Source: a virus
Reading direction: 5' to 3' (one strand)
Length of the DNA stretch: 42,767 nt
IMG/VR virus record: IMGVR_UViG_3300017831_000047
Span: 1-42,767 of that record
The notes below the pieces were generated by a model that saw only the letters and a program-made list of their open reading frames with translations, did no database searches and was not told where the DNA came from. Positions 2,869 to 42,475 of the stretch are shown here, piece after piece. A program made the position numbers and the translations under genes. Every line of letters begins with the position of its first letter. Positions within the stretch are counted from its first letter, which is position 1.

Positions 2869-2944
2869 GAGCCGCTAGCTCATTCGGTAGAGCATCGCCC
2901 TTTTAAGGCGAGTGTGCTGGGATCGAAGCCCAGGCGGCTCACCA
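2869..2944 (+). tRNA. tRNA-Lys (anticodon TTT), host of the attachment site
   Basis: A full cloverleaf can be drawn: acceptor stem GAGCCGC/GCGGCTC (2869-2875 with 2934-2940), D-arm GCTC/GAGC, anticodon stem TCGCC/GGCGA with loop CTTTTAA (anticodon TTT at 2902-2904), T-stem CTGGG/CCCAG, discriminator A and encoded CCA (2942-2944). The T-loop ATCGAAG has A instead of T at position 54, which is unusual. The gene stays intact after phage integration because attL supplies an identical 3' half. Confidence 0.92.
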
Positions 2945-2954
2945 CTATTTTATG
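2900..2954 (+). repeat. attL: direct repeat at the left end of the prophage
   Basis: Bases 2900-2945 (46 bp, anticodon loop to CCA plus one) are identical to 42421-42466. After one mismatch (T/C) the next eight bases (ATTTTATG) also match. The integrase stop codon (TAG on the minus strand, 2945-2947) lies inside the duplicated segment. Confidence 0.92.
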
Positions 2955-3961
2955 ATCTCCAATATCTGCTGGGACGTATTTGGGACGCGACCCCCATTCC
3001 CGGCAAATTTTTGGAGGTGCTCACTGGAGAGGTGGGCATACCTCTTGACCATGCTCACCGACTCCCATCCTCCCAACTCCTGAAGAACAGACAAAGGTGT
3101 TCCGTTCTGGATGTGCCATGAGGCCCAGGTGTGTCTCAGGTCATGCCAGCGGAAATCTTTAATCCCCGCCTTCTGAAGTGCCTTTTGCCATCCCCTGTTA
3201 TTGACGCGGGCGAGGGGCTTTCCCTTGAAACTGAAGACATGCGTCTCGCATTTTCCGAGCTGTCTTCGGATGACCTCCACCGCCTCCTCTGACAGTGGGA
3301 CCGAAATCGCTTTTCTTGCCTTCGCCTGGTCTGGATGAATCCACGCGACCCTTCTGGTCAAGTCCACTTGCGACCACTCGAGACCAAGCACGTTGCTCAT
3401 TCGGAGCCCCGTCGCAAGAGAGAACCGCACGATGTCCGCCTTGTGTTCCGGGAGGGCCCGAATGAGTCGAGCGGCTTCTTCATGCGTCAGATACCGCACA
3501 CGCTTTGTCTCTGTCTTCAATGTGCGGATTCTTGGTGAAGAAGGGAGCCAGCCGAGGGCATGCGCGTGTCTCAGGACGGCTCGAAGCACCATGAGGTACT
3601 TGTTGACCGTCGCCGGGCTGACCTTCTCCTTTTTCTTTTTTGAAATCAAATCCCCGATCATTGCCGCATCGATCGCCTCCAGAGGACGACCCTCCAGATG
3701 ACCGGTGAGCCATCGGAGAATCCCCTTGAGCGTCCCGTTGTCTGGACGTTCCCGGTCATCGAGCCAGGACAGCGCGGCCTCGTCCCAGATCTTGGGGGCT
3801 TTCTCCCCAAGTTGATCCCGTCTCCACGACTCTGCTTTCAGGCGGTCGTGGAGTTCTTGGGCTTCCTTTCTGTCGGTTGTCCGAGCCGACTTCTTAATGC
3901 GTTGACCGCCTGGTGTGGTGAAGTCAACGAACCAGACGGACCCTCTTTTGAATATTCCCAT
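2945..3961 (-). CDS. int: tyrosine-recombinase phage integrase
   Basis: 338 residues; catalyses site-specific integration at the tRNA-Lys core. The catalytic set is visible: R187 in ATGLRMSN, a Lys-rich beta-hairpin region at about 213-217, H273-x-x-R276 in HDLRHTW, W299 in LGGW and the nucleophile Y308 in VKRYAHL. The N-terminal 60 residues form an arm-binding type domain (FKRGSVWFVDFTTPGG), followed by a SAM-like core-binding domain. I chose ATG 3961 because GGAGG lies six bases upstream; a longer frame exists but has no such signal and would extend far into the excisionase gene. Its 5' 124 bases overlap the excisionase gene in another frame. It is the last gene of the leftward operon and abuts attL. 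Confidence 0.93.
   Translation of the reverse strand: MGIFKRGSVWFVDFTTPGGQRIKKSARTTDRKEAQELHDRLKAESWRRDQLGEKAPKIWDEAALSWLDDRERPDNGTLKGILRWLTGHLEGRPLEAIDAAMIGDLISKKKKEKVSPATVNKYLMVLRAVLRHAHALGWLPSSPRIRTLKTETKRVRYLTHEEAARLIRALPEHKADIVRFSLATGLRMSNVLGLEWSQVDLTRRVAWIHPDQAKARKAISVPLSEEAVEVIRRQLGKCETHVFSFKGKPLARVNNRGWQKALQKAGIKDFRWHDLRHTWASWHIQNGTPLSVLQELGGWESVSMVKRYAHLSSEHLQKFAGNGGRVPNTSQQILEIIK
2970..2987 (+). promoter_or_regulatory. candidate integrase arm-type site, left
   Basis: TGGGACGTATTTGGGACG contains two TGGGAC units 11 bases apart. It matches 16 of 18 bases of a module in the same orientation near the right end (42295-42312). Here it sits inside the 3' end of the integrase gene, 16 bases inward of the repeat. 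Paired arm-type sites flanking the core are typical of tyrosine-integrase attP sites; binding is inferred. Confidence 0.5.
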
Positions 3962-4161
3962 GGAACCTCCACGAATGAGGTCCGGGTGTGCCGATCTTGA
4001 GCGTACCCCGACCTGACCCAAACGACAAGATCCTCCTGCAGGAACCGCCAGATTCTTCCGACCTTCCTCCCGGGGATCCGTCCTGCTTTCGCTTCCTTGC
4101 GGAGCCAATCAGGGTGGATCTTGAGAAAGTGGGCGGCTTCATCAAGAGTGAGCGTGGTCAT
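3838..4161 (-). CDS. xis: excisionase-like helix-turn-helix protein
   Basis: 107 residues. Residues 3-52 form a MerR/excisionase-type winged helix (LTLDEAAHFLKIHPDWLRKEAKAG followed by a GRIWRFLQEDL wing). The rest is polar and probably disordered. It should direct the integrase toward excision by bending attL/attR. The start is ATG 4161 with AGGAGG upstream, overlapping the stop of the preceding DUF3850 gene by four bases. The last 41 codons overlap the integrase start in a different frame, which could couple the two. The assignment rests on the fold and position next to int. Confidence 0.75.
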   Translation of the reverse strand: MTTLTLDEAAHFLKIHPDWLRKEAKAGRIPGRKVGRIWRFLQEDLVVWVRSGYAQDRHTRTSFVEVPWEYSKEGPSGSLTSPHQAVNALRSRLGQPTERKPKNSTTA

Positions 4162-4489: not shown

Positions 4490-5188
4490 TCATGCGCGGC
4501 CTCTCACCGAGGATTCAACGACCACCCTGCACCCGGGGACATTGAACGCCTCCTTGAGCGCCCGTGCCATGCCGTTCAGGGCTGTCTGGTTCACTTCCAG
4601 AAGGCCGATTGGGGCCCTTCCCTGGGCGACAGCCTGGATAAGCTGAGCGAGATTGACGACCTCTCCCTTGTAGATTTTGCTGACGGAGAGTCCTTCCACC
4701 TTCGGGGCTTGTGTGGCGACCTTCGGGACAACAACTGGCTGGGGGAGAATGGGGGCTTCCAGGATCGCATCCGCCATCGCGGAATCCCCTTCCTGTTCCA
4801 GTCTGGCCGCTTCTTCAAGTCGACGTTCTTCCTCTTCTTTTCTGGCCTGTTCTTCGGCCTCTTTCCGGAGACGGTCTTCTTCCGCCTTACGAATCCTCTC
4901 CTGCTCCGCATGAAAGTCTCCGATCTTCCGGTCGATGATCTTCTGGGCCTGTTCGACCGGCTCCATGACCTTCTTCTTTTGAGCGACCGCTTCCTTGTGT
5001 GCCTCGTAGGCCTTCTTTACGATCGGGTCGAAGGTGTTGTCGATCTCCTTTTTTACCGCTCGGAGGGTCAGTGTGAACTCTGCGGCCTCTTTGAAGGTGT
5101 CTGCATCCATGATCTGAATGTGGGCTGCTTTCTCCGGGAGGGTGAGGGCCCTCTGTTCCACTTCCTCTATAGCCACGACTGCGCTCAT
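4490..5188 (-). CDS. phage coiled-coil protein of the recombination operon
   Basis: 232 residues. The N-terminal half resembles phage proteins found next to annealing proteins (LTLRAVKKEIDNTFDPIVKKAYEAHKEAVAQKKKVMEPVEQAQKIIDRKI). Residues about 95-135 are a Glu/Arg-rich coiled coil. The C-terminal 65 residues are compact (VSKIYKGEVVNLAQLIQAVAQGRAPIGLLEVNQTALNGMARAL). I recognise this type in phage recombination cassettes but know no activity; it may assist the exonuclease or annealing protein. The start overlaps the exonuclease stop by ATGA with GGAG seven bases upstream, indicating translational coupling. Confidence 0.7.
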   Translation of the reverse strand: MSAVVAIEEVEQRALTLPEKAAHIQIMDADTFKEAAEFTLTLRAVKKEIDNTFDPIVKKAYEAHKEAVAQKKKVMEPVEQAQKIIDRKIGDFHAEQERIRKAEEDRLRKEAEEQARKEEEERRLEEAARLEQEGDSAMADAILEAPILPQPVVVPKVATQAPKVEGLSVSKIYKGEVVNLAQLIQAVAQGRAPIGLLEVNQTALNGMARALKEAFNVPGCRVVVESSVRGRA

Positions 5189-5763
5189 TTTATTGCTCCT
5201 TGTTTGATGTGGTAGACCCTGAGCACGGCCAACCAGTCCGCCGAATGCTCGATGCTTTTATAGGACTCGACGGAATAGGTCCCGTCTTTTCGTAGATGAA
5301 CCCCCCACATGTCCCAGATCGGGATGTTGATCTCCCTCTTGACCATGAGGGCATAGGCCGCAAGCTGGAGCCTGTGCCAGGACTGAGGAGGCCCGGTTTT
5401 GATGTCCAGAAGAAGTGGATTGATCTTGTGAGTTTTTCCAATCCGGTCCACCGTTCCGGCGTATCCCTGATCGGAACAGAACGCCTGTTCGATGTGAGAC
5501 GGGGCGAAGCCCGTTTCCTCCCGAAACTTCTTCCACGCTGACAGGTATCCGGCCCATTCCTCCGGGAGTGTGTCGTCGTCCATCCCCGTCTCATCCCAAA
5601 AGACGGTGGCCTCATGAACCCGGGTCCCTCTCTCGGCATGTTCGGGGGCGAAGAACGTGGTATCGATCAGCCCCACGTCCTTCAAAATCTGGGTGACGGA
5701 GGGGAGGACCGTCTCCCCTTTCCGGTATGTGTGGGTCTCGGGATCGAAGGTCAGGGCGTTCAT
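5185..5763 (-). CDS. PD-(D/E)XK exonuclease (lambda-exo functional analogue)
   Basis: 192 residues with the RecB/Cas4-like nuclease signature: RGTRVHE (H50), IEQAF (E92), GYAGTVDRIG (D106), LLDIKTG (D120, K122) and QLAAYALM (Q133, Y137). It should be a metal-dependent, 5'-3'-type DNA exonuclease that makes single strands for the adjacent annealing protein. It is short for the superfamily but complete. It overlaps its upstream and downstream neighbours by four bases each, so the three genes are likely co-translated. Confidence 0.82.
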   Translation of the reverse strand: MNALTFDPETHTYRKGETVLPSVTQILKDVGLIDTTFFAPEHAERGTRVHEATVFWDETGMDDDTLPEEWAGYLSAWKKFREETGFAPSHIEQAFCSDQGYAGTVDRIGKTHKINPLLLDIKTGPPQSWHRLQLAAYALMVKREINIPIWDMWGVHLRKDGTYSVESYKSIEHSADWLAVLRVYHIKQGAIK

Positions 5764-6611
5764 ATCTCAGCCGCATCCTTCTGCCCCTCGATCCAGGCGA
5801 TGATTCCGTCATACTGGCTCTTCAGAATCTCGTTCGATGACTTGATACCAAGATTGGCCAGGTGAGCCTTGATATCTTCGGTGGAGACTCCATTCTCCCG
5901 GGCGATCGCAAAGAGCCGCTTTCGCTGGGGGTCGGAGATATATTGGTCATCAGGAGTGGTGAAGGTCCCTTCCGTTTTCTTTTCCGACCCGTTTTGAGGT
6001 TGTGTGGGGGAAGGGGAAGACGGTCTTCCCAGCGTCTCGGGATCCATGTCCTCGATGTCTTGGGTGAAGATATCGCTGGCTCCCAGGGTGGTGAGAGTGG
6101 CATCGACAAGGGCCCGTTTCTTTGCCATCTTGAGGATGGTGTTAGCCTGGTCGTGGGGATTGGTCCGGACCTGCTTGATCTTTTCCACCTTCCCGTATTT
6201 TTTCGAGAATTTGATCCGGCGCTGGTCGACGGGGGTCTCTTCGTACTCTTCGTCGCACACGGCTCCCCGCCATTTGTACTTCTCCTCGAGGGAGGAACAT
6301 TCTCCGACCCCGCTTCCCACGAATCGTCCGTCGAAGGTCAGGAGCCGCACCTTGACTCGATACCCGATCCCTCCTTCAAGGAAGAGCGGTTCCACTTCCG
6401 TTTCCGGGGCCAGCCGGAAGGTCATGATGAGCTTTTCCGCCCCGGCTTTCAGAAGAGTCGGTTTGTCTCCGGCTCCCGGGATCTTTCCGTAATGCTGTCC
6501 GTCCTGCATGACGGACCGCATGACTTCCTGAATGCGGTTGACCTGGGCCCGGATATCGAGGGCGGTCATCGGGGCATGGTTCTGGGGGGCAATATCAAGT
6601 TCGGTGCTCAT
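5760..6611 (-). CDS. putative single-strand annealing / recombination protein
   Basis: 283 residues. The N-terminal domain has VMQDGQHYGKIPGAGDKPTLLKAGAEKL, then a beta-rich stretch and ILKMAKKRALVDATLTTLGASDIFTQDIED, a set of motifs common to phage proteins encoded next to exonucleases. The C-terminal 60 residues (QRKRLFAIARENGVSTEDIKAHL...IIAWIEG) form a small helical domain also seen at the end of annealing proteins. I see no clear RecT, Erf or Sak4 signature, so the role is inferred from family resemblance and from the exonuclease directly downstream. The start is ATG 6611 with AAAGGAG upstream. Confidence 0.65.
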   Translation of the reverse strand: MSTELDIAPQNHAPMTALDIRAQVNRIQEVMRSVMQDGQHYGKIPGAGDKPTLLKAGAEKLIMTFRLAPETEVEPLFLEGGIGYRVKVRLLTFDGRFVGSGVGECSSLEEKYKWRGAVCDEEYEETPVDQRRIKFSKKYGKVEKIKQVRTNPHDQANTILKMAKKRALVDATLTTLGASDIFTQDIEDMDPETLGRPSSPSPTQPQNGSEKKTEGTFTTPDDQYISDPQRKRLFAIARENGVSTEDIKAHLANLGIKSSNEILKSQYDGIIAWIEGQKDAAEI

Positions 6612-6796
6612 GCGGATTCTCCTTTTCTAAAAATGGCAGGTCGGTTCTGGGAATCGCAGGGTCGGCACATGCCGTGAACCCTGATGAAGCCCCTTTCCTG
6701 AAAGGGCCTTTCGTTCTGGCAAACAGGACAAATGGGGTAGTCGTACCGGAGCCTGATCACTCCGTCTTCCACGATGCAAAACTCGGCAAGTCCCAT
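6608..6796 (-). CDS. small zinc-ribbon protein
   Basis: 62 residues with two CxxC pairs (CPVC and CRPC) spaced about 20 residues apart, a probable zinc ribbon. It overlaps the annealing-protein start by ATGA and the upstream gene stop by one base. Function unknown; small zinc proteins in PL-type operons are often host-takeover factors. Confidence 0.7.
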   Translation of the reverse strand: MGLAEFCIVEDGVIRLRYDYPICPVCQNERPFQERGFIRVHGMCRPCDSQNRPAIFRKGESA

Positions 6797-6966
6797 TACG
6801 CCTCCTTTGTTTGTGCCCGTTGCTGGGCGAGAATGTACTCCCCCATCCGACTGCAGGCCGAATAGAGGTCCCGGAGATGGGAAAGATCCTCATCCGGGAG
6901 GCCGTTCGATTTCTCAATCTGCTCCATCAATTCCCAGAGGGCATACCGGATCTCGGTCGGGATCAT
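6796..6966 (-). CDS. small hypothetical helical protein
   Basis: 56 residues, predicted all-helical (IRYALWELMEQIEKSN, LSHLRDLYSACSRMGEYILAQQ). I chose ATG 6966 because GGGGAGG lies just upstream; the longer reading frame overlaps the preceding gene without a binding site. No homology recognised. Confidence 0.6.
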   Translation of the reverse strand: MIPTEIRYALWELMEQIEKSNGLPDEDLSHLRDLYSACSRMGEYILAQQRAQTKEA

Positions 6967-6968
6967 AC

Positions 6969-7190
6969 CTACCTCCCCGTGACGATGCGCCAGGTTGAAT
7001 AAGTCAGCGGGATCAGAAGGAGCGACCCCGCCGCAAGAATCAGGGTGACAAGGACCAGAGGCCAGAGGGGAACCGAAACGACCTCGGCCGTTCTGAGCCG
7101 ACACTCGAAACATTCTTCCTCCATGCTCTCCAGCAGGGCCCCGCACTGGCAGAGTTCAATGGGTATGCTTGGATCGAAAATACGGTCCAT
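6969..7190 (-). CDS. small membrane protein with N-terminal CxC/CxxC motif
   Basis: 73 residues. A cysteine-rich head (CQCGALLESMEEECFEC) suggests a zinc knuckle, and it is followed by one membrane helix (VPLWPLVLVTLILAAGSLLLIPLTY). The second of two nearby ATGs (7190) is preferred because GGAG is six bases upstream of it and directly abuts the first (7196). Likely an inner-membrane phage protein of unknown role. Confidence 0.6.
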   Translation of the reverse strand: MDRIFDPSIPIELCQCGALLESMEEECFECRLRTAEVVSVPLWPLVLVTLILAAGSLLLIPLTYSTWRIVTGR

Positions 7191-7202
7191 GGCCATCTCC
7201 TT

Positions 7203-7322
7203 TCAGCAGCCGTTCCATTTCGCCAAGAGACTGAAGAACAAAAGCACATTGAGGCCAAGAAGGATCTGCCGCATGATCCGGTGGCCTTGGTCACTTGAGG
7301 GCCAGCCATACACCTTCTTCAT
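7203..7322 (-). CDS. 39-residue single-pass membrane peptide
   Basis: Starts at ATG 7322, overlapping the upstream stop (7319-7321), with GGAG seven bases before it. A basic N-terminus (MKKVYGWPSSDQGHRIMRQ) is followed by one membrane helix (ILLGLNVLLFFSLLA) and KWNGC. The spacing, binding site and overlap fit a real operon member even though it is very short. Confidence 0.5.
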   Translation of the reverse strand: MKKVYGWPSSDQGHRIMRQILLGLNVLLFFSLLAKWNGC

Positions 7323-7534
7323 CGAACTCTCCGGTACAGCATCCGGATCAGCTCGTAGGCCGCAGTCACATGATCACGGATGATCTGGTCATCCGAGTCG
7401 ATAAACTGGATCTTTGCCGCTCCTAGGTGGGCGAAGGCTTCTTCGATGAGGTCCTTGGCCGGAACGGGGGGGAGTTTCTCACTCATGCCTGAGATCTGAT
7501 TAAGTGCCTGGTCGAATACCGATAAGCTGTCCAT
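7319..7534 (-). CDS. small hypothetical protein
   Basis: 71 residues, mainly helical (AKDLIEEAFAHLGAAKIQFI, IIRDHVTAAYELIRMLYRRVR). ATG 7534 is preferred over ATG 7555 because GGGG lies about five bases before it; the start follows the stop of the upstream zinc-finger gene by one base. Function unknown. Confidence 0.6.
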   Translation of the reverse strand: MDSLSVFDQALNQISGMSEKLPPVPAKDLIEEAFAHLGAAKIQFIDSDDQIIRDHVTAAYELIRMLYRRVR

Positions 7535-7535
7535 C

Positions 7536-7733
7536 TCATCCCCTTTCCCATTCATCGTTCAACGCCAAGAGGTCTTCGTAAGCCTCGTCCTCTTCCCGGA
7601 GGATTCCGTCCCCCCGGCATCGATAACAGCACCCCTCTCCGGCTGGCCCCCAGGGAGACTCCCCGGAGCCGGAACAGGCGGGGCAGATCCGCTCTTCCTC
7701 GTCCTCTCCCATGACGTTCTTAAACATCGACAT
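7536..7733 (-). CDS. small DnaJ-type zinc-finger protein
   Basis: 65 residues with CPACSGSGESP and CYRCRGDG, the CxxCxGxG repeats of DnaJ-like zinc fingers, inside an otherwise acidic protein. It may bind a partner protein; function unknown. Start ATG 7733 with AGAGGA upstream. Confidence 0.65.
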   Translation of the reverse strand: MSMFKNVMGEDEEERICPACSGSGESPWGPAGEGCCYRCRGDGILREEDEAYEDLLALNDEWERG

Positions 7734-7745
7734 GGCATCCTCTTG

Positions 7746-7967
7746 CTACTCTGTTAAAATTTGTGCCAGATGAGCGCAGTCTTCCGGTCTAAGGGGAAAG
7801 GACATGCTGAGGTCGTCCTTGCGGATCACTAGCACTTTTCCCCGCTCCCCGTTGTTTTGCACCGTGATCATTTCAATGCGGGTGGGAAAGCGGGCAAGTC
7901 CCGCTTCTGTTTTGCGAAAGGAAACGGCATTTTCATAAGGTTCATTGGACGAAAGGATCTCTTCCAT
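7746..7967 (-). CDS. hypothetical protein, first gene of the leftward operon
   Basis: 73 residues with a beta-rich middle (RIEMITVQNNGERGKVLVIRKDDLSMSFPL) and a helical end. It is not recognised. It is the promoter-proximal gene of the leftward early operon. Its ATG (7965-7967 on the complement) shares a CATG palindrome with the ATG of the divergent gene at 7966. Confidence 0.55.
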   Translation of the reverse strand: MEEILSSNEPYENAVSFRKTEAGLARFPTRIEMITVQNNGERGKVLVIRKDDLSMSFPLRPEDCAHLAQILTE

Positions 7968-8295
7968 GACTGGCCTTTCTGAGATTTTCGGAATTCTTAA
8001 CCTCTTTAAATGGATCGGAAAAGCTTGGTCTCGTTTAAAAAAGTCCTTTTCAATGCGAGCCCATGTTTCCGATTTGGAGAAAAGGGTTCAAAATTTGGAA
8101 ACACTTCTTTCGGAGAAAAAAGATCTTCCTCCCGGAGAGAAATGTCCCGGTTGCAGCTTGCCTGCTTTTAGGATGATTTCTCGCACCCCTTTTACCGTCC
8201 TTCCCAATGGAACTCCCATTTCCTTTAGAACGACAAAACAATGCTCAGAATGCGGTTTCAGTGAGACAAATGTTAGCGGTCCTTCGTCTTTGTAA
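7966..8295 (+). CDS. coiled-coil plus zinc-ribbon protein
   Basis: 109 residues. A short coiled coil (VSDLEKRVQNLETLLSEKK) precedes a zinc ribbon (CPGC ... CSEC, about 35 residues apart). This layout is common in small phage and bacterial proteins of unknown role. It runs against the leftward transcript from the promoter at 8397, so it may be a lysogenically expressed extra gene. ATG 7966 has AAAGGA upstream; TTG 7945 is an alternative start. Confidence 0.6.
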   Translation: MTGLSEIFGILNLFKWIGKAWSRLKKSFSMRAHVSDLEKRVQNLETLLSEKKDLPPGEKCPGCSLPAFRMISRTPFTVLPNGTPISFRTTKQCSECGFSETNVSGPSSL

Positions 8296-8365
8296 TTTCT
8301 TTGAGTGCAACTTTGCTTGGGTGCCCTCACCGCCCGCTGGCCCTGTAATATCCAGCGATTCAAGG

Positions 8366-8380
8366 GCTCCTCGAAGGAGC
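8366..8380 (-). other. hairpin in the leader of the leftward transcript
   Basis: On the minus strand GCTCC-TTCGA-GGAGC forms a 5-bp stem with a 5-base loop, about ten bases after the expected start of the leftward early transcript. Size and position resemble a lambda boxB, but no convincing boxA and no N-like gene were found. Confidence 0.3.
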
Positions 8381-8396
8381 GGGGGAACTGAGAGGA

Positions 8397-8436
8397 ATAG
8401 TACAGGAAATGCCTTAATAAGTCAAGTTATACCTGT
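8397..8436 (-). promoter_or_regulatory. leftward early promoter and operator (PL/OL-like)
   Basis: On the minus strand TTGACT (8420-8425), 17 bases, TACTAT (8397-8402). The promoter is framed by ACAGG and CCTGT half-sites (operator 8402-8436). The 35-bp operator matches the one before cro (12981-13015) at 29 positions, in the same orientation relative to transcription. It should be shut by the same repressor and drives the recombination/excision operon. Confidence 0.75.
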
Positions 8437-8464
8437 AGTGTGGGTACTCGAAGGAATGAGGCAC

Positions 8465-8485
8465 AAAAAAACCGCCCGAAGGCGG
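8465..8485 (-). terminator. Rho-independent terminator
   Basis: On the minus strand CCGCC-TTCG-GGCGG followed by eight Ts: a stable UUCG tetraloop hairpin with U-run. It ends the leftward transcript of the 8538-8879 gene just upstream of the PL-like promoter. Confidence 0.85.
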
Positions 8486-8537
8486 CTGGGGGGGGGAAGT
8501 GGAGGAAGTGGTACGGGGAAGGTGTCGGTTATTTTTT

Positions 8538-8879
8538 CTATTCCAAAAGATAAGCGATTCGCCAGAGGAGTACTATGACCACGGTGAGAGCAATAAACAA
8601 CAAAGCATCCGGTTTAAGAATATTGTGAAACTCGTTGGAGACCTCCAAGCTCATCCCGATGACCGAATAGACGATGGTGGGTAAAATGGTTGGATGGTAA
8701 ATTTCGAGAAACAGGATGGTTGCTACGCTTCCCCCTATATAAACGAATCTACGGAAATTTTTAAAACTCCATAATGTGGCGAAAAAGGCGTGGAGGCCAT
8801 CCGTTGTTCGCTTTAATTTATTCCTTTTTGTGATTTTTCTTTGAGAGTTTTCCTTAACTTCTAGATCGGAAGAGAGCAC
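8538..8879 (-). CDS. AT-rich membrane protein of the immunity region
   Basis: 113 residues. The N-terminus is basic and polar. It is followed by about three hydrophobic segments (FVYIGGSVATILFLEIY, TILPTIVYSVIGMSL, ALLFIALTVVIVLLWRIAYLL). Starts with GTG 8879, with GGGAGGA about ten bases upstream, and has its own terminator at 8465-8485. The low GC content and position between the two operators suggest a lysogenic-conversion gene, for example superinfection exclusion, but no family is recognised. Confidence 0.6.
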   Translation of the reverse strand: MLSSDLEVKENSQRKITKRNKLKRTTDGLHAFFATLWSFKNFRRFVYIGGSVATILFLEIYHPTILPTIVYSVIGMSLEVSNEFHNILKPDALLFIALTVVIVLLWRIAYLLE

Positions 8880-9092
8880 CTTCAGTTCCTCCCTTTTCTT
8901 ATTGTTTTTTCAAGATTTTTGTCCCTTCTTTATGTAAAAGTCAACAGCAAACACGGGCAACACGGAAGGGGAAGGGGGCCTTACTGGAGCATGGCAGGAA
9001 CTATTGGAAAGAGAGTTGAGGGCAGATCCGTATACTTTATTTTGGAAAAAACGATCAGATCAATTTCTAGAATAAATAGAGAGGAGGTGATA

Positions 9093-9290
9093 ATGATGTT
9101 CTTGCATGAGCAAGTCTTAGAAATGGGGGCAATTTACTTTTCCCCAATCTACAGGGGCCCTGTTCATTGCGTGGCCTGTAATGTAGGAGAAGTGGCGTTT
9201 ACTCCGGTAGGCAACCCTGTATTCGGAGTGGCCCAGGTCTACGCTCTCCTATGCGATCACTGTGGCCGGACAGGGGTCCACCCGAATTAA
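9093..9290 (+). CDS. small zinc-ribbon protein
   Basis: 65 residues with CVAC and CDHC pairs separated by about 28 residues, a zinc-ribbon arrangement. The start was set at ATG 9093 because a near-perfect GAGGAGGTGA lies immediately upstream; the upstream frame extension is AT-rich and lacks a signal. It is followed by a terminator. Function unknown. Confidence 0.65.
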   Translation: MMFLHEQVLEMGAIYFSPIYRGPVHCVACNVGEVAFTPVGNPVFGVAQVYALLCDHCGRTGVHPN

Positions 9291-9316
9291 AGGTTGTATT
9301 CAGAGGAGGTGAATCA

Positions 9317-9366
9317 GGGTATGATGGGAGGGATTTTTGTCGCCCTCCTTCATACCCACTTTTTTT
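9317..9366 (+). terminator. Rho-independent terminator
   Basis: A long stem (GGGTATGATGGGAGGG at 9317-9332 with CCCTCCTTCATACCC at 9343-9357, one bulge) followed by CTTTTTTT. It should end the transcript of the zinc-ribbon gene at 9093. Confidence 0.8.
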
Positions 9367-9382
9367 ATAGAATGGAGTCCTT

Positions 9383-9640
9383 GTGCTTTTACCGGAAACA
9401 ACAGACCTTGGCCGAGCCATCAATGAGTTCATCGAGATCAATGCAACCTTGGATATGCCGAGAGAGGACAGGAAGTTCGAGGGGGCAGTCGTGGCCCATG
9501 TCATTGCCGACAAACTGAACGACCTCTCGCCTGATGAGCGTCACCGATGGGTCATGACACTTCTGGCCTACCTGGCGGAAGCGACAAACCTTGCCTACCA
9601 GAAGGGCGTGGAGGTTGAAAGGATGTTGATTTCAAAGTGA
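9383..9640 (+). CDS. hypothetical helical protein
   Basis: 85 residues, predicted all-helical and acidic (LGRAINEFIEINATLDM, DRKFEGAVVAHVIADKLNDLSPDERHRWVMTLLAYLAEATNLAYQKG). GTG 9383 has GGAG upstream. It lies between the terminator at 9317-9366 and the convergent restriction gene. Not recognised. Confidence 0.55.
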   Translation: MLLPETTDLGRAINEFIEINATLDMPREDRKFEGAVVAHVIADKLNDLSPDERHRWVMTLLAYLAEATNLAYQKGVEVERMLISK

Positions 9641-9797
9641 ATTTAATTTTTTATAAAAATTGGCTCGCTACCTTGTCTTCTTCTAAGAAGAACATCTATT
9701 TTTCTACATTCGAGTAAATAGATGCATTTAATCCGCCACCCTTTTCGAATTCGAAATGTAATGAGTTTGAGAAAGAGGAGATTCATAATAATCTTCA

Positions 9798-10898
9798 TTA
9801 AGAAACCTTTGGTATGCATGATTCCATAAAGCTGTCTAAAAAATCCTCGCCAATGCCTTTGATATTTCTTCTTTGGCAAAGTGAATAAAGCTCTTCGATG
9901 GAGGAGTATGGAAAGAACTTAGTATTCAATGTTTTAAATTGGTCTTTATTGGCTTCGGTCATTACTTTTTCTCGGTCTTCATCCGGAGCGGCAATTACCC
10001 ATCGACTGGAAAAAGGAGGGATCAAATCTTGAAAGGCTTTCATTCGGGTTAATCCGCTCGTTACACCAGTTGTATGTTCAATTTCAATAACTGCAGGCAT
10101 AAATCTTGCATTTCGGAACCAAACAACATCTATCAACAATGCGGCTCTAGCAGCTTCAGAATATGAGGCTAATTGAGGCAATTCGGACAGTGTTGGAACA
10201 ACTCCGGGTGTTTCTCCGAGCCTTTTTCCTTTATACACAATTCCTTTATCGTTTTGAGCAATCCAAGTTTTGAAGCCAAGCTGTTTTCCGATTTCCAGTA
10301 AGGCCACCTGAATTTGGGCGTGCCTTCTCTGAATCTCTGGCGGAAGAGACCCAGTGGGGGATCCAGCTTCAATTAATTCAGAGGGAATAAGAAGGGCTTC
10401 GTATACGGCCTCCCTTGTAGGAATTTCAGATATGGTCATTCCTTGAACATTTTTTTCTTCTACCACTCCAAGGCGATGGGGTTCCTCTGGAAGCCATAGT
10501 AAATGTTTATGTCCCTCTTTGATTTGGGTAGAGGATTCTCTTATTTCTATTCTACCCGGATAGCAATATTTAAATTGAGGTGTATGTGCTAAGAGGGCTT
10601 CGAGTGCCGAGCGAGTGTTGTAGCTTGCTCCTAAGATTCGATCTATATTGATTGGCATCCCTGGAGAAATGGCATTTGCCACGCGACTTATCATTTGGGG
10701 AGAAATTGTTTCAGATTTTGCAGATTTGGGAGTACCTCCTTTATGAGGATTGTATCTTTTAATTTTTATGGGACCCTCTGGCCGCACGATATCAACAATT
10801 TCTATTTTAGTTTTTGTTGAGCTGGAAAGGTAGTTATACGCCCTGTCCTTGGGTAGATTTCCAATTGCTTGCACAATATCTGACGCTGTCAACCTCAT
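9798..10898 (-). CDS. putative type II restriction endonuclease
   Basis: 366 residues. The C-terminal half has the layout of a PD-(D/E)XK nuclease family: HAQIQVALLEIGKQLGF...WIAQNDKG (about 193-219), LIDVVWF (D257), then VIEIEHTTGVTSGLTRM (E272, E274), then a WVIAAPDEDREKV strand-helix. The EIEHTT element stands where most relatives have E-x-K. The N-terminal half is unrecognised and may recognise the target. ATG 10898 has GGAGGGGAGG upstream; the start overlaps the 3' end of the methyltransferase gene by 65 bases, a classic restriction-modification pair. It is AT-rich compared with phage core genes, which suggests acquired cargo. Confidence 0.7.
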   Translation of the reverse strand: MRLTASDIVQAIGNLPKDRAYNYLSSSTKTKIEIVDIVRPEGPIKIKRYNPHKGGTPKSAKSETISPQMISRVANAISPGMPINIDRILGASYNTRSALEALLAHTPQFKYCYPGRIEIRESSTQIKEGHKHLLWLPEEPHRLGVVEEKNVQGMTISEIPTREAVYEALLIPSELIEAGSPTGSLPPEIQRRHAQIQVALLEIGKQLGFKTWIAQNDKGIVYKGKRLGETPGVVPTLSELPQLASYSEAARAALLIDVVWFRNARFMPAVIEIEHTTGVTSGLTRMKAFQDLIPPFSSRWVIAAPDEDREKVMTEANKDQFKTLNTKFFPYSSIEELYSLCQRRNIKGIGEDFLDSFMESCIPKVS

Positions 10899-12009
10899 AT
10901 TCCTCCCCTCCAAGAAAGAAGTTCAAAGCTTTTGCTAAATTTTTTGAAAGGAGAAATGGCACTCCATTTCCGATCGCTTTAAACATGCTGGAAAGACTCA
11001 TTTCTTCAGGCAAAAGAAAATTTTGGGGAAGACTCTGAATAGCCAACGCTTCTGCAACCGAAATTCTCCTTGGTTTGTACGGATGCAAATGAACTTCATT
11101 ATTGCCGTAGCAAGCTGTAGGAGAATATCTCCAACGATGGAGACGCTTGAATGATTTTTTGCTGTCATCCCCTTCAGGAATTATCTTAAACCTAGGAAAA
11201 CCAGCTCGAGGATGAAAGTGATGTGGCTGATTGGGATGAAGTTCCACTGAGTTTTTCTCAAACCAGTATTGAACGGTGAGTTCCTTGATTAATCCTATCG
11301 GTGGGGAGATCTGCTTGTCTTCAGAAAATGGTGTGGTAGTGGGCCACGGTTTAGAAAAAATATCTGCTTTATCGTACCGTTTAAATTTCTCCCAAGGAAA
11401 AAAGGATCCGGGAAGTTTTTTTAACGAGGATCTTCCCAATATTTCTTTTTTAAACCCTAAAAGAATAATTCTCTCCCGATCCTGAGGCACTCCGAATTCA
11501 AGAGAATTCAGGAGCTTGTCGGAAAGGATATATCCTGAGTCTTTTAAGTGTATTTTTAACTCCTCATAGAATTGTCGGTGTTTTTTGGTTTGCCATAACC
11601 CTTTCACATTCTCGAAAAGGAAAAAGTCCGGAGCTTGTTGACAAATTAATTGGATATAAGCAGATGAGAGTTTCCCATTGTCGCCTTCCCTACCAAGGTT
11701 TTTCCCGCCAATAGAAAAATCGGGACATGGTGGTCCCCCGATAAACCCAACTAAAGAGCCATCGCGTTTAGCCTCTTTAATCAAATTTTTCATTGTTCTT
11801 TGTTTCGGTTGCTCCAGCAACTCTGTGATAGAGCCTTGAAAAAATCCAAATTCAGGCTCTTTTATGTTAAGTGTTTTCCGGCTGTATTTGTAGGCTTTTA
11901 GGAATGAAGGATTCAGTTCGTTAACATACGAGATGGAAAATCCTTCAGATTCAAAGCCTAGATCTAGAAGTCCAGCTCCCGAGAAAAATGAGAAAATTTT
12001 ATATTTCAT
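10834..12009 (-). CDS. DNA (cytosine-5) methyltransferase of a restriction-modification system
   Basis: 391 residues with the C5-methyltransferase motifs in order: I FSFFSGAGLLDLGFE (6-20), IV GGPPCPDFS (91-99, catalytic C95), VI LFENVKGL (131-138), VIII PQDRERIILLG (175-185), X AIGNGVPFLLSKNLA near the end. It transfers methyl groups from S-adenosylmethionine to cytosine, protecting the DNA from the endonuclease encoded next to it. ATG 12009 follows AAGGA by six bases. The variable region before motif X (about 190-330) should carry the target-recognition domain. AT-rich like its partner. Confidence 0.9.
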   Translation of the reverse strand: MKYKIFSFFSGAGLLDLGFESEGFSISYVNELNPSFLKAYKYSRKTLNIKEPEFGFFQGSITELLEQPKQRTMKNLIKEAKRDGSLVGFIGGPPCPDFSIGGKNLGREGDNGKLSSAYIQLICQQAPDFFLFENVKGLWQTKKHRQFYEELKIHLKDSGYILSDKLLNSLEFGVPQDRERIILLGFKKEILGRSSLKKLPGSFFPWEKFKRYDKADIFSKPWPTTTPFSEDKQISPPIGLIKELTVQYWFEKNSVELHPNQPHHFHPRAGFPRFKIIPEGDDSKKSFKRLHRWRYSPTACYGNNEVHLHPYKPRRISVAEALAIQSLPQNFLLPEEMSLSSMFKAIGNGVPFLLSKNLAKALNFFLGGEEYEVDSVRYCASNWKSTQGQGV

Positions 12010-12235
12010 TTTTTTCCTTAAAGAGCTACGAGGCCATTTGTTTTTAATTTAGGTTCAGAATTCCGTTCGGGTCTCCTAGTATACATTTGAGAGATTGAAA
12101 ATCGTCTGAAAATACCTCATTACAACGATCTCCCGGGTGATTGGATTTCATGTAGAAGGAAAAAGAAAAAAATACTCTCACCTTTATTTTTCAGAAACAC
12201 CCTCCCACCTGCTTAAATCGGTAGGGTTTATCCGC
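12010..12235. other. AT-rich spacer between methyltransferase and repressor genes
   Basis: 225 bases. It must hold the promoter of the leftward restriction-modification operon and the end of the repressor transcript. I see the methyltransferase binding site AAGGA but no hexamer pair or terminator hairpin that I would defend. Confidence 0.4.
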
Positions 12236-12943
12236 TCAGTACATTTTCTGCTTCCCGACCACCACTCCCACGATGAGGGCCTTTCGTCCGTTCAGACGGA
12301 TGGGCTCATATTTCGGAAAGTTGAGCGGTAAAAGCGAGACATTTCCGGCATCCACGACATACTTCTTGAACGTGGCCTCCTGGGTATCCAGGAGTTTTGC
12401 AATCACGAACGAGCCGTTCTCCGGTTGGCGGTGGGGATCCACGAGGATGATGTCTCCATCGGCAAACTCGGGGATCATGGAATCGCCCCTCACCCGAAGA
12501 CAGAAAGCGTTCGGCATATCCTTTCGCGGAATACCAAACGGCACCCACATTTCAGCATCGCCCGGCTGAAAATTATCGACGATTTCAGACCACTCCCCGG
12601 CTTGAACCCAGGAGATCAGCGGGAAGTCCTTCAGGATCAGATGGGTTTCCTCGAGTCCTTCTTCCCCCTTCCTGGCCGAGTGGAGGGTGGAGGTGGCGAC
12701 ATTCGGATCCTTCCGGGTCGGCTCTGACAAGACGAGGTCTGGGCCATCTCCAAATTCGAGCCATGCGGGAGATACTTCTAAAACTCTGGCGATCTCTTTC
12801 ATGCGCTTTCTGTCCGGAGGCTTCCCTTCCCGCACCCATTCATAAACCGATTGGGGAGTAATTCCAAGCTCTTTGGCTAATCGGTAGGGTTTCATCCCTT
12901 TTCTCTTGAGGGCTTGATCAATTCTTTCGCAAATAGGGTTCAT
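12236..12943 (-). CDS. cI: phage repressor, HTH plus S24/LexA-type peptidase
   Basis: 235 residues. N-terminal helix-turn-helix (about 17-40, PYRLAKELGITPQSVYEWVREGKPP), a linker, the Ala-Gly self-cleavage site in WVQAGEW (A115-G116), and the S24 catalytic dyad S155 in VRGDSM with K193 or K194 in TFKKYV. It keeps the lysogen silent and should cleave itself on RecA activation. ATG 12943 is chosen because the HTH starts there and the putative promoter lies directly upstream. No Shine-Dalgarno is seen, so the message may be leaderless, as for lambda cI made from PRM. It is divergent from cro. Confidence 0.9.
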   Translation of the reverse strand: MNPICERIDQALKRKGMKPYRLAKELGITPQSVYEWVREGKPPDRKRMKEIARVLEVSPAWLEFGDGPDLVLSEPTRKDPNVATSTLHSARKGEEGLEETHLILKDFPLISWVQAGEWSEIVDNFQPGDAEMWVPFGIPRKDMPNAFCLRVRGDSMIPEFADGDIILVDPHRQPENGSFVIAKLLDTQEATFKKYVVDAGNVSLLPLNFPKYEPIRLNGRKALIVGVVVGKQKMY

Positions 12944-12956
12944 GTGTAAGAGGCTA

Positions 12957-13020
12957 CAGGGCTTCCCTGAACCTAGCAAGACAGGCATATCTTGATTTAT
13001 ATCGGCATTTCCTGTATACC
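12957..13020. promoter_or_regulatory. repressor/Cro operator region with divergent promoters (OR-like)
   Basis: Rightward promoter TTGATT (12992-12997), 17 bases, TATACC (13015-13020), framed by ACAGG (12981-12985) and CCTGT (13011-13015). A leftward promoter for the repressor may be TTGCTA, 17 bases, TAGCCT on the minus strand; its spacer contains the palindrome CAGGG-CTT-CCCTG (12957-12969). These CAGG half-sites are probably bound by repressor and Cro. Confidence 0.7.
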
Positions 13021-13028
13021 TACTCCTC

Positions 13029-13250
13029 ATGAAAACCACCTCTCTTTCTCTCATCGATGTCATTGAGTATTTCGGCAACCAATCCGCCCTAGCGCGGGAG
13101 CTTGGAATCAAGCCCCAATCGGTACAGGAATGGGTTTCGTCCAACCACCTTCCCATCCGCCGAGCCATCCAGATTGAACGGATCACGGGCGGAGAGATCC
13201 GCCTGGAGGACATCATTCATCTGACGGGCGTGGAAAAGGTGGCCTCATGA
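13029..13250 (+). CDS. cro: Cro-like helix-turn-helix protein
   Basis: 73 residues with an HTH of the YdaS/Cro type (VIEYFGNQSALARELGIKPQSVQEWVSSNHLPIRRAIQIERITGG). The recognition helix region closely resembles that of the repressor (ITPQSVYEWV against IKPQSVQEWV), consistent with sharing operators. It starts only a few bases after the expected transcription start and has no Shine-Dalgarno, so it may be leaderless. First gene of the rightward early operon. Confidence 0.85.
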   Translation: MKTTSLSLIDVIEYFGNQSALARELGIKPQSVQEWVSSNHLPIRRAIQIERITGGEIRLEDIIHLTGVEKVAS

Positions 13251-13303: not shown

Positions 13304-13975
13304 TCAGGAGGTGGGGGGGATGGCTTTTTCTTGCCGTTCTTTAATCATCCCAGGAAGAGTGAAGACATACGTCAAGAAAATTTCAGTGAACGAAATGATT
13401 TCAGCGGCCTGTTTTTTGGAGAAGGTATCAGGGTCGTGGGAAGCATCATTTCCATCATTCCAAATTATTTTCCCCCATTCGCACAAGTCTTTTGTAAGCA
13501 CCCCTGCCGAAAAGAGCGAGTCGAACCGTTTTGGTCGACTTCTTACGCCAGGATCAGCTCCCAATTCAAATGTAGAAGCATCAACCACTTTTCGGCATGC
13601 CATTCCACAACTATTCGTATTTCCCCGGTGAAAAGAGTCTACGGCCTCAAGAAAGAACACGGCAATATTGTCCGGCACAAACCGAGGAGCTTCCGGGATA
13701 GGTGGCTTTGGGTAAATTTTGAGAACTCTGTAGCGTGGTTGATTTTCAATGGCCGATGGATGGTTCGAAGGGGGAGGGGTATTATTACTGGCTTCGATTG
13801 TTGCACAAATCCCTTGTCGACACCCATTGCAATGGAAATAGGTTGTCCACCGGATAAGGAGGTCATTTCCGAAGGGGTTTCGTCCAACCTCTTTCTCCAT
13901 TTCTATTTCCGAAACTTGCGTGCAAGCGATTTTTTCCCTGTGGCAATGCGGACATGTAACCGTGAGTATTGCCAT
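13304..13975 (-). CDS. DUF4145-like protein with N-terminal zinc finger
   Basis: 223 residues. The N-terminus has CPHCHREK and a second cysteine pair CNGC, probably one zinc site. Residues about 110-180 resemble DUF4145 (IAVFFLEAVDSFHRGNTNSCGMACRKVVDAS...WNDGNDASHDP), a helical domain often attached to nucleases and defence proteins. It is opposite in direction to the surrounding early operon and starts from a CATG shared with the divergent gene at 13974, so it looks like inserted cargo expressed independently. ATG 13975 has GGAGGGGGAG upstream. Possible immunity or exclusion role, not shown. Confidence 0.65.
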   Translation of the reverse strand: MAILTVTCPHCHREKIACTQVSEIEMEKEVGRNPFGNDLLIRWTTYFHCNGCRQGICATIEASNNTPPPSNHPSAIENQPRYRVLKIYPKPPIPEAPRFVPDNIAVFFLEAVDSFHRGNTNSCGMACRKVVDASTFELGADPGVRSRPKRFDSLFSAGVLTKDLCEWGKIIWNDGNDASHDPDTFSKKQAAEIISFTEIFLTYVFTLPGMIKERQEKAIPPTS

Positions 13976-14168
13976 GTATGACTCCCCCCTCCACGACCTC
14001 ACCCGTCACTCCCAAATCATCCACAAAATTATGACATACGGGGAGGGAGTTCCCCAACGGCTTTTCGACCGCTACCGGATTCTCTCGGAACAACACGAGA
14101 AGGATGCCTTCGTTCTTGCTCTGATTGGGGCACTTCTCATTTCTGAGGGAAGGCGCAAAAGCCAATGA
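13974..14168 (+). CDS. small hypothetical early protein
   Basis: 64 residues, helical (LTRHSQIIHKIMTYGEGVPQRLFDRYRIL, KDAFVLALIGALLISEG). The ATG shares a CATG with the divergent DUF4145-like gene. The stop overlaps the next start (ATGA), placing it in the rightward early operon. Function unknown. Confidence 0.55.
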   Translation: MYDSPLHDLTRHSQIIHKIMTYGEGVPQRLFDRYRILSEQHEKDAFVLALIGALLISEGRRKSQ

Positions 14169-14404
14169 GTTCAGATTCCCTCTACCAAAAGAACCTGGAG
14201 CTTCTCGAAGACCGGCTTACGCAGTACGGAGCCCGGAAAAACCTTGCCAGGGAGGTCGGCATATCTGAATCCCAACTTTCCAAGCTCCTGAACGGATTCC
14301 TTCGGGTTTACTGCCAAATTCTGGCCGCTCTGAAGCTGGAGGTGGTTCCCCAGGAATATCTCAAAGCACTCAAGACCGTGGCTAAAGAGGAGCTTCGGCC
14401 GTGA
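14165..14404 (+). CDS. small helix-turn-helix regulator, CII-like position
   Basis: 79 residues with a clear HTH (RLTQYGARKNLAREVGISESQLSKLLNG). Its place, two genes after cro and before replication, matches lambda cII, but sequence alone does not prove an activator role. It overlaps both neighbours by four bases. Confidence 0.65.
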   Translation: MSSDSLYQKNLELLEDRLTQYGARKNLAREVGISESQLSKLLNGFLRVYCQILAALKLEVVPQEYLKALKTVAKEELRP

Positions 14405-33281: not shown

Positions 33282-35132
33282 ATGGGATTTCTCTCTTCTC
33301 TTGAAAGCGGGATGGATACGGCCGGAAGGGTGTTGGGACTGCCCGTGGTCTCCCCGCTTCTCGAACTTCCTCAATACCTTCATCGGAAGAATCAGGATGC
33401 GGCTCTTGAAAAGGCGGTCGGCTCTCTTGATCAAAAAGGGGCTCCTTCCCGGAGTCTGCTTTACCCCACGGCTCCAGTGAACGGAAATGCGCCGACTCCT
33501 TCCGGAAGTTTGGGGCTCCTCGCATCAGCCGATCCTCCCCTTCCGGCCAATTTTAAACCGGGGCAACCTCTTCCTCGTCCTTCGGCACAGGAGATCCCTC
33601 AAGGGGCGCAAATCGCGCAGGGTCCACCCCGATTGGTGTCGTCTGCCACTCCTCCCGGCACGAGGTCGAAAGAGTTCCTGGGAACCCTGCAGAAGATCTA
33701 CAGCCCTGAAGCCTTGGCCTCCATGAAGAAAACCGATCCGAAGCAATATGCCAAGGTCATGGCCTTCCGGGGGATTGCCAACTACGACCAGGGGAATGCC
33801 CAAGGTGCGGTGGCCGATTTGGTGGAGGCCGGCCTTCCGGCGACCGACGCCATTGCGATCCTGCAGGAGCAGAAGGCCCAGAAGGCGATGGGTCAGTTCG
33901 GAGAGACCCTCCAGAATCTCTTGAAAGGACCGGCTCCAGCACCAGGTCCAAAGCCTCCGGTCATGGTTCCGCCCGAGCGTTTGTCTCCCATGAGTCAGAC
34001 GGGATCGGGCCAGGCAATTCCGGCGTCGTTTCCTCAAGGGGTGGGAAGCTCCACTCTTCCCACGGCTCGGGATGGGATGCCCCTCACAAAGCAGGAGTTC
34101 ACGCAGAAGGCCTTCAAGGCTCTTCTGTCCGTTCCTCCGGCCCAGAGGAATGCGGCCTTCCAACAGGTGCAGCAAATCGCTTCAACCCTTCCGGACAGGA
34201 AGGAATTAGCCCCTCTTCGGGCCCAGCAACAGCTTCCTGCCTTTGAAGCCGGGTTGAGCGCGGCCAGAACGCCCCAGGACGTTCAGAATCTGATCGCCTC
34301 CCAGATCCGGAAGCTCCCGGTTGCCGCCCGTGATCCCTTCATCAAATCGATCAGCCCTCTTCTTGCGAACTGGCAGAAAAACTATGCGGTCCAACAGAAG
34401 GAAAGCACCCTCACCGGACCGGCTCTGGATCTTGCCGCCAAGCAGTATCTGGCAACAGGCACCATGCCGTCTTTCGGAATGCAGGGGCAGAAACAGAAAG
34501 AAGCGGTCATGAACCGGGCGGCCCAAATGCAGCAATCCGAAGGGTTGACCCCGGACGATGTCGTTTTCAACCAGAACGAGTTGAAAACCGCGAGACAAGC
34601 GTTGGGGCAGATCCAGAAATCCCAGGGGATGATCATGCAGTACGAGGAAACGGCTTACAAGAATGCCGATCTGGCCCTCAAGGCTGCGGATCAGACCGAT
34701 CGGACGGGAGTTCCTCTGCTCAATCGCTGGAAGATGGCCCTAATAAGCGGGGTGGGGGGAAGTCCGGAGGTGGCCCGTTTCAATGCGGCCAACCAGACCT
34801 TTGTGAATGAATACGCCAAGGTCATGTCGGGGGGATACGGAGCGTCGGCCACTTCGGATTCGGCCCGGCAGGAGGCCCTCTCGATGCTCAACACCGCCCA
34901 GACACCGGAGCAATACCGGGCCGTTGTGGATCAGCTCAAGAAGGAAATGAACAACCGGATGCAGGCGATGAAGGATACCCGAGCCTTCCTGGAGAACCAG
35001 ATGAAACGGGCGATTTCCGGGAAACGGGCTCCCTCTTCGGGAGGTCTGCCCAAAGGGGCCATCCCTGGAACCTTCCGAGGACAAAAAGGATATCTCCTGA
35101 ACGGCCGCTTCTACCCGGAGAAGACCCAATGA
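33282..35132 (+). CDS. putative ejection / internal virion protein
   Basis: 616 residues, Ala/Gln/Pro-rich and largely helical, with an amphipathic N-terminus (GFLSSLESGMDTAGRVLGLPVVSPLLELP). The middle has Pro-rich linkers (GPAPAPGPKPPVMVPP). The C-terminal half has long helices (DVVFNQNELKTARQALGQIQKSQGMIMQYEETAYKNADLALKA) and a GYGASATSDSARQEALSMLNTAQTPEQYRAVVDQLKKEM segment shared by many podovirus ejection proteins. Overlaps the next gene by four bases. Confidence 0.65.
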   Translation: MGFLSSLESGMDTAGRVLGLPVVSPLLELPQYLHRKNQDAALEKAVGSLDQKGAPSRSLLYPTAPVNGNAPTPSGSLGLLASADPPLPANFKPGQPLPRPSAQEIPQGAQIAQGPPRLVSSATPPGTRSKEFLGTLQKIYSPEALASMKKTDPKQYAKVMAFRGIANYDQGNAQGAVADLVEAGLPATDAIAILQEQKAQKAMGQFGETLQNLLKGPAPAPGPKPPVMVPPERLSPMSQTGSGQAIPASFPQGVGSSTLPTARDGMPLTKQEFTQKAFKALLSVPPAQRNAAFQQVQQIASTLPDRKELAPLRAQQQLPAFEAGLSAARTPQDVQNLIASQIRKLPVAARDPFIKSISPLLANWQKNYAVQQKESTLTGPALDLAAKQYLATGTMPSFGMQGQKQKEAVMNRAAQMQQSEGLTPDDVVFNQNELKTARQALGQIQKSQGMIMQYEETAYKNADLALKAADQTDRTGVPLLNRWKMALISGVGGSPEVARFNAANQTFVNEYAKVMSGGYGASATSDSARQEALSMLNTAQTPEQYRAVVDQLKKEMNNRMQAMKDTRAFLENQMKRAISGKRAPSSGGLPKGAIPGTFRGQKGYLLNGRFYPEKTQ

Positions 35133-42420: not shown

Positions 42421-42475
42421 CTTTTAAGGCGAGTGTGCTGGGATCGAAGCCCAGGCGGCTCACCACCATTTTATG
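42421..42475 (+). repeat. attR: direct repeat at the right end of the prophage
   Basis: A copy of the tRNA-Lys 3' half from the anticodon loop through CCA, identical to attL over 46 bases and then 8 of 9. The upstream tRNA half is absent here, so this is not a functional tRNA gene. Confidence 0.92.

Follow-up and report, generated by a model that had tools for sequence, protein, structure and literature searches.

Among described immunity regions, those of lambda and of P22 and phage L come closest to the locus considered here. The annotated operator sites of lambda have centre-to-centre spacings of 23 and 24 at OR and of 24 and 20 at OL, and when the lambda record is searched for paired 35-mers in the same way as the DNA described below, the sequences at PR/OR1 and PL/OL1 match at 26 of 35 positions in inverted orientation. 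In P22 and phage L, the immC region comprises c2, cro and c1. Two further phages are relevant: 933W, which has five rotationally symmetric repressor sites and no OL3 (PMC3317979), and HK022, in which an antitermination RNA of about 70 nt with two stem-loops, putL, lies directly downstream of PL (PMC9378689).

The stretch of DNA analysed in the current study (the window, 42,767 nt) is a virus record with an intact prophage in a tRNA-Lys gene. The prophage is about 39.5 kb between the copies of an identical 45-bp direct repeat, attL (nt 2901–2945, plus strand) and attR (nt 42422–42466). The former lies within the tRNA-Lys gene (nt 2869–2944), the 3' half of which it covers, and is adjoined by the integrase gene, while terminase, portal and head genes are found on the right side of the prophage. 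The first 25 kb of the window have no nucleotide match in phage records, and a flanking gene (nt 1815–2732) has no match among 150 genomes of one phylum.

The gene at nt 12236–12943 (minus strand) encodes a cI-type repressor of 235 aa with an N-terminal HTH domain, a Peptidase S24 domain and a VQAG cleavage motif (Pfam PF00717, 1e-26; PF01381, 9.9e-10). It can be aligned to the catalytic domain of lambda CI (2ho0; 4e-18), with the Ala-Gly and GDSM motifs conserved, and is about 35% identical to the phage L c2 and P22 repressors over 95–97% of its length; judged by these matches, it is an S24 protein of the P22 c2/lambda CI type. Divergent from it, across a shared operator region, is the gene for a Cro-like repressor of 73 aa (nt 13029–13250, plus; Pfam P22_Cro, 1.3e-16), and downstream of this is a gene for a CII-like regulator of 79 aa (nt 14165–14404, plus; PHROG 725 'CII-like regulator', 1.3e-8), whose match to Pfam Phage_CII falls just under the cut-off. 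No CII binding sites of the form TTGC-N6-TTGC, nor any shared direct repeat of 4+6+4 or 4+7+4, were found. A related repressor, a Cro of the P22_Cro type and a c1/cII-type gene are thus shared with immC of P22 and phage L, but the operators are different, no counterpart of gene 24 or of nut was found, and the window phage belongs to a separate lineage. Between cro and the CII-like gene, a gene for a DUF4145 (PHROG 1305) protein (nt 13304–14002, minus) opposes the rightward operon, and looks like inserted cargo.

The initial annotation had proposed that two 35-bp sequences, at nt 12981–13015 (plus) and nt 8402–8436 (minus), match at 29 of 35 positions, and both the coordinates and the orientation proved correct. 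No other 35-mer in the window matches at more than 20/35, and about 1.2e-7 matches at 29/35 would be expected by chance (binomial, whole window). A motif scan for further copies, using the consensus of the 35-mers and allowing up to three further mismatches, returned the two known places alone and nothing in 100 shuffles. The ACAGG...CCTGT ends reported for both sequences were confirmed, as was a CAGGG-CTT-CCCTG palindrome beside the repressor start, which is situated at nt 12957–12969, about 14 bp from the start codon. Promoter hexamers with 17-bp spacers had also been described within the 35-mers. They are present, in the same register, and give a predicted PR (nt 12992–13020, plus; TTGATT-17-TATACC, with a weak −10) and a predicted PL (nt 8397–8425, minus; TTGACT-17-TACTAT), but the −10 boxes begin at the last base of the 35-mer or just beyond it, and the 35-mers therefore hold the −35 box and spacer rather than a whole promoter. 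PR was not returned by a generic promoter scan.

While the position of the proposed 35-bp operator was accurate, each 35-mer is best read from its sequence as two adjacent 13-bp operators with CAGG-N5-CCTG half-sites. The half-site was read from the isolated palindrome, and the two regions were then resolved into 13-bp dyads. This gives three putative OR sites and two putative OL sites. OR3 (nt 12957–12969) would be the perfect CAGGG-CTT-CCCTG palindrome, in the spacer of a predicted PRM (nt 12951–12979, minus) with a weak consensus, read from the sequence as TTGCTA-17-TAGCCT, from which the repressor mRNA would be nearly leaderless. The candidate OR2 (nt 12982–12994, CAGGCATATCTTG) overlaps the −35 of PR and adjoins that of PRM, and OR1 (nt 13002–13014, TCGGCATTTCCTG), with two mismatches to the 13-bp dyad, lies in the PR spacer and ends at the −10. 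On the left, the candidate OL1 (nt 8403–8415, CAGGAAATGCCTT) similarly lies in the PL spacer and ends at the −10, and OL2 (nt 8423–8435, CAAGTTATACCTG) overlaps the −35 of PL; no OL3 was found at the left operator. The distances between site centres are 25 and 20 bp for the OR sites and 20 bp for the OL sites. The symmetry of the ACAGG...CCTGT ends, together with the 20/35 self-complementarity of the OL 35-mer, could instead mean that each 35-mer is one extended operator for a repressor tetramer. This is improbable, as the 13-bp dyad also accommodates the inner half-sites (CTTG; CGGC or AAGG) and is found on its own at OR3, and the lambda and 933W repressors bind separate sites of 15–17 bp (PMC3317979).

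A single 13-bp motif is no rarer than would be expected by chance: the window has 30 with one mismatch or none, against 23.7 expected. Significance rests on the 35-bp match and on clustering. The presence of four 13-bp motifs within about 120 bp has a Poisson probability of about 8e-7, a value that is no more than indicative because the motif was defined from the same sites. A PWM scan of the window returned five sites among the top six, with one unrelated late-gene match at nt 34011, but carries no evidential weight, because the matrix was trained on these five sites and random sequences reach similar single-site scores. No exact match to the operator consensus was found in IMG/VR.

Taken as pairs of adjacent dimer sites, the two 35-mers have a probability of roughly 90%, in our estimate, of being the operator/promoter regions on the right and the left of a lambda/P22-type immunity region carried by an intact prophage. 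They very probably contain the repressor sites that switch the dormant virus between silence and growth, in a layout like that of lambda. Repressor dimers would bind, perhaps cooperatively, to the 13-bp sites, at OR1 and OR2 to shut off rightward transcription from PR (cro, the CII-like gene and replication), and at OL1 and OL2 to shut off leftward transcription from PL (recombination, and probably excision/integration). A repressor at OR2 would be placed where PRM could be stimulated, while occupation of OR3 by Cro or by excess repressor would stop repressor synthesis. RecA-stimulated self-cleavage of the repressor at Ala-Gly would release the switch.

The likenesses to lambda extend to gene order and orientation, the three predicted OR sites, the inverted similarity of OR and OL, the position of an operator at the −10 of both PR and PL, accessory genes between the repressor gene and OL, and a CII-like gene after cro. 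The operators of lambda are 17 bp, however, compared with the 13 bp (CAGG-N5-CCTG) proposed for the window, and differ in sequence; in addition, only two OL sites are seen in the window, restriction-modification genes take the place of rex, and neither N nor nut was found. The predicted layout, with five sites and no OL3, is already known from 933W, although the sites of that phage are 15 bp and of another sequence (PMC3317979). The immunity system is, in short, textbook in kind, with operator sequences of its own, and the result is a complete and testable predicted map of the operators in a lineage of temperate phages to which none of the sequenced phages searched is a close match.

The recognition region of Cro, ELGIKPQSVQEWV, resembles that of the repressor, ELGITPQSVYEWV. 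At the nucleotide level, the recognition-helix DNA of the repressor (nt 12834–12871) and that of Cro (nt 13098–13135) share 84% identity across 38 bp in inverted orientation, a likeness that suggests a shared origin or an exchange of the DNA-reading part. Since the two helices are alike, either protein could bind the sites, and the assignment of operators to a given protein is indirect. It is nevertheless very unlikely that Cro or another regulator alone binds here, with the 35-mers serving as lytic-phase operators and the repressor acting elsewhere: the sole perfect palindrome of the CAGG half-site in the window falls within the repressor promoter region, and the repressor–cro gap has no other convincing cluster of inverted repeats.

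The proposal that the 35-mers are analogues of PL/OL and PR/OR is supported by gene content, by the lambda control and, above all, by a relative, L136 (IMGVR_UViG_3300033990_000601), which was found by a search with the leftward gene at nt 5760–6611 and provides the strongest independent support for this reading. The leftward operon is common to the two phages (75% DNA identity over nt 4500–6715 of the window), and the CII-like protein of L136 is 77% identical to that of the window, but L136 encodes another repressor and another Cro. Exact copies of TAGC-N5-GCTA occur three times in 13.5 kb of L136, against 0.03 expected, two of them in the repressor–cro gap and one at PL, and imperfect copies of this type adjoin the −35 boxes. 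Both L136 promoters have 17-bp spacers, with an operator reaching the −10, and in the test applied to the window the OR/OL match is 28/35, inverted. Recognition regions are alike within the repressor/Cro pair of each phage (PQSV-x-EW in the window, AY-x-Q in L136) and differ between the two phages. Repressor, Cro and operators have all been replaced in L136, and thus the operators have changed along with the proteins expected to read them, a co-replacement that would be expected of heteroimmune phages. The two form a clean natural pair, in which repressor, Cro and operators have been exchanged while the flanking operon and the PL leader have been kept, and lambda-style immunity exchange would thus operate here with its own operator sequences.

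The segment between the repressor gene and OL carries, as cargo, the genes for a type II C5-cytosine DNA methyltransferase (nt 10834–12009, minus; Pfam PF00145, 2e-49; PADLOC MTase_II, 5.8e-164) and its partner, a type II restriction enzyme (nt 9798–10913, minus; PADLOC REase_II, 3.4e-114), with overlapping reading frames (nt 9798–12009 overall). In L136 this position is occupied by other genes, including those for NYN-, DndB- and DUF5131-domain proteins. The immunity region also contains two small rightward ORFs (nt 9092–9640, plus), which are convergent with the restriction genes. The first encodes about 66 aa with CxxC motifs and is preceded by a strong Shine-Dalgarno sequence; the second (nt 9383–9640) encodes 85 aa. 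Near-identical inverted sequences framing a segment with cargo genes could also be the inverted termini of a mobile element of about 4.6 kb that carries the repressor gene together with those for restriction-modification, or could bound an invertible segment. Such an origin is highly implausible: of the segment genes tested, none was found to encode a transposase or recombinase, there is no target-site duplication (flanks GAATAGT and ATACCTA), and a transposon was rejected on these two counts. Moreover, a promoter lies in the same register in both 35-mers, the inverted OR/OL relation recurs in lambda and L136, where it is explained by operators, and L136 has repeats of another sequence at the same two positions.

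The leftward operon, putatively driven by PL (nt 4490–7967, minus), begins with small genes, which are followed by recombination genes: a phrog_10048-like gene (nt 5760–6611, minus), a PD-(D/E)XK gene (nt 5185–5763, minus) and an exonuclease-like gene (nt 4490–5188, minus). The tyrosine integrase gene (nt 2945–4108, minus; Pfam Phage_integrase, 2e-36) is at the distal end. According to the initial annotation, the operators showed this operon to be under repressor control as far as the integrase. A promoter and operator do point at these genes, but 'showed' is too strong, and transcription from PL through to the integrase is a prediction. Just upstream of PL, an intrinsic-terminator-like hairpin (nt 8470–8487, minus; 7 bp, TTCG loop, T run) separates PL from the immunity genes and would end the leftward transcript that precedes this promoter. 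An ORF on the opposite strand (nt 7966–8295, plus; 109 aa, two CxxC pairs), with no family match, intervenes between PL and the gene at nt 7967; at this position L136 has a different ORF, in the PL direction. The ORF of the window is antisense to the expected PL transcript and is back-to-back with the gene at nt 7967, their start codons overlapping.

No N-like family was found among the leftward genes tested and no nut site was seen. N proteins are short and divergent, and the lack of a match is for this reason weak evidence. An N-type antiterminator with nutL and nutR is in any case not universal, as HK022 has no protein requirement, and N and nut were therefore not treated as defining. Counting against the operator reading are the weak PR −10 (TATACC) and PRM hexamers and the singly unremarkable 13-bp motifs, as well as the lack of OL3, of an N-like protein and of a nut site, and the opposing ORF at nt 7966–8295.

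The least explained part of the locus is the PL leader (nt 8325–8399, minus), a conserved non-coding sequence with two possible hairpins that is 85.5% identical to nt 8784–8859 (plus) of L136, and is the longest non-coding stretch common to the two (blastn). The alignment of these two sequences has nine substitutions in all, and two of the pairs in the second hairpin (CGCUGG/CCAGCG versus CGCGGA/UCCGCG) are compensatory, with a p of about 0.005 by simulation. The leader RNA is probably structured, although folding of the single sequences was no better than that of shuffles. It has no Rfam match and no nucleotide match in phage records, and 17-mer matches in two other genomes (L216 and L217) were discarded as chance, since their flanks do not align. 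HK022 putL is a two-hairpin element at the same place, a resemblance alone, without a demonstrated sequence relation; unlike put of HK022, the leader has no second copy downstream of PR, nor was any leader element shared by PL and PR found. That the 75-bp leader is a structured RNA acting on RNA polymerase, by put-like antitermination or as a new class, and allows leftward readthrough despite the opposing cargo gene, is doubtful but conceivable. With two sequences available the leader is a lead, and the part of the locus that could lead somewhere new.

For more distant relatives of the repressor (mostly 30–37% identity), a 30-mer test gave no OR/OL repeat of this kind that rose above noise, and these relatives therefore provide no phylogenetic footprint; phage L gave only 21/35 in the 35-mer test. 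One distant repressor (L033), with a similar helix, TKQSVTGW, has the palindromes AAGGCATTGCCTT and CAAGCATTGCTTG upstream of nt 10001, which are close in sequence to OL1 of the window (AAGGCATTTCCTG) and may reflect a correspondence between helix and operator.
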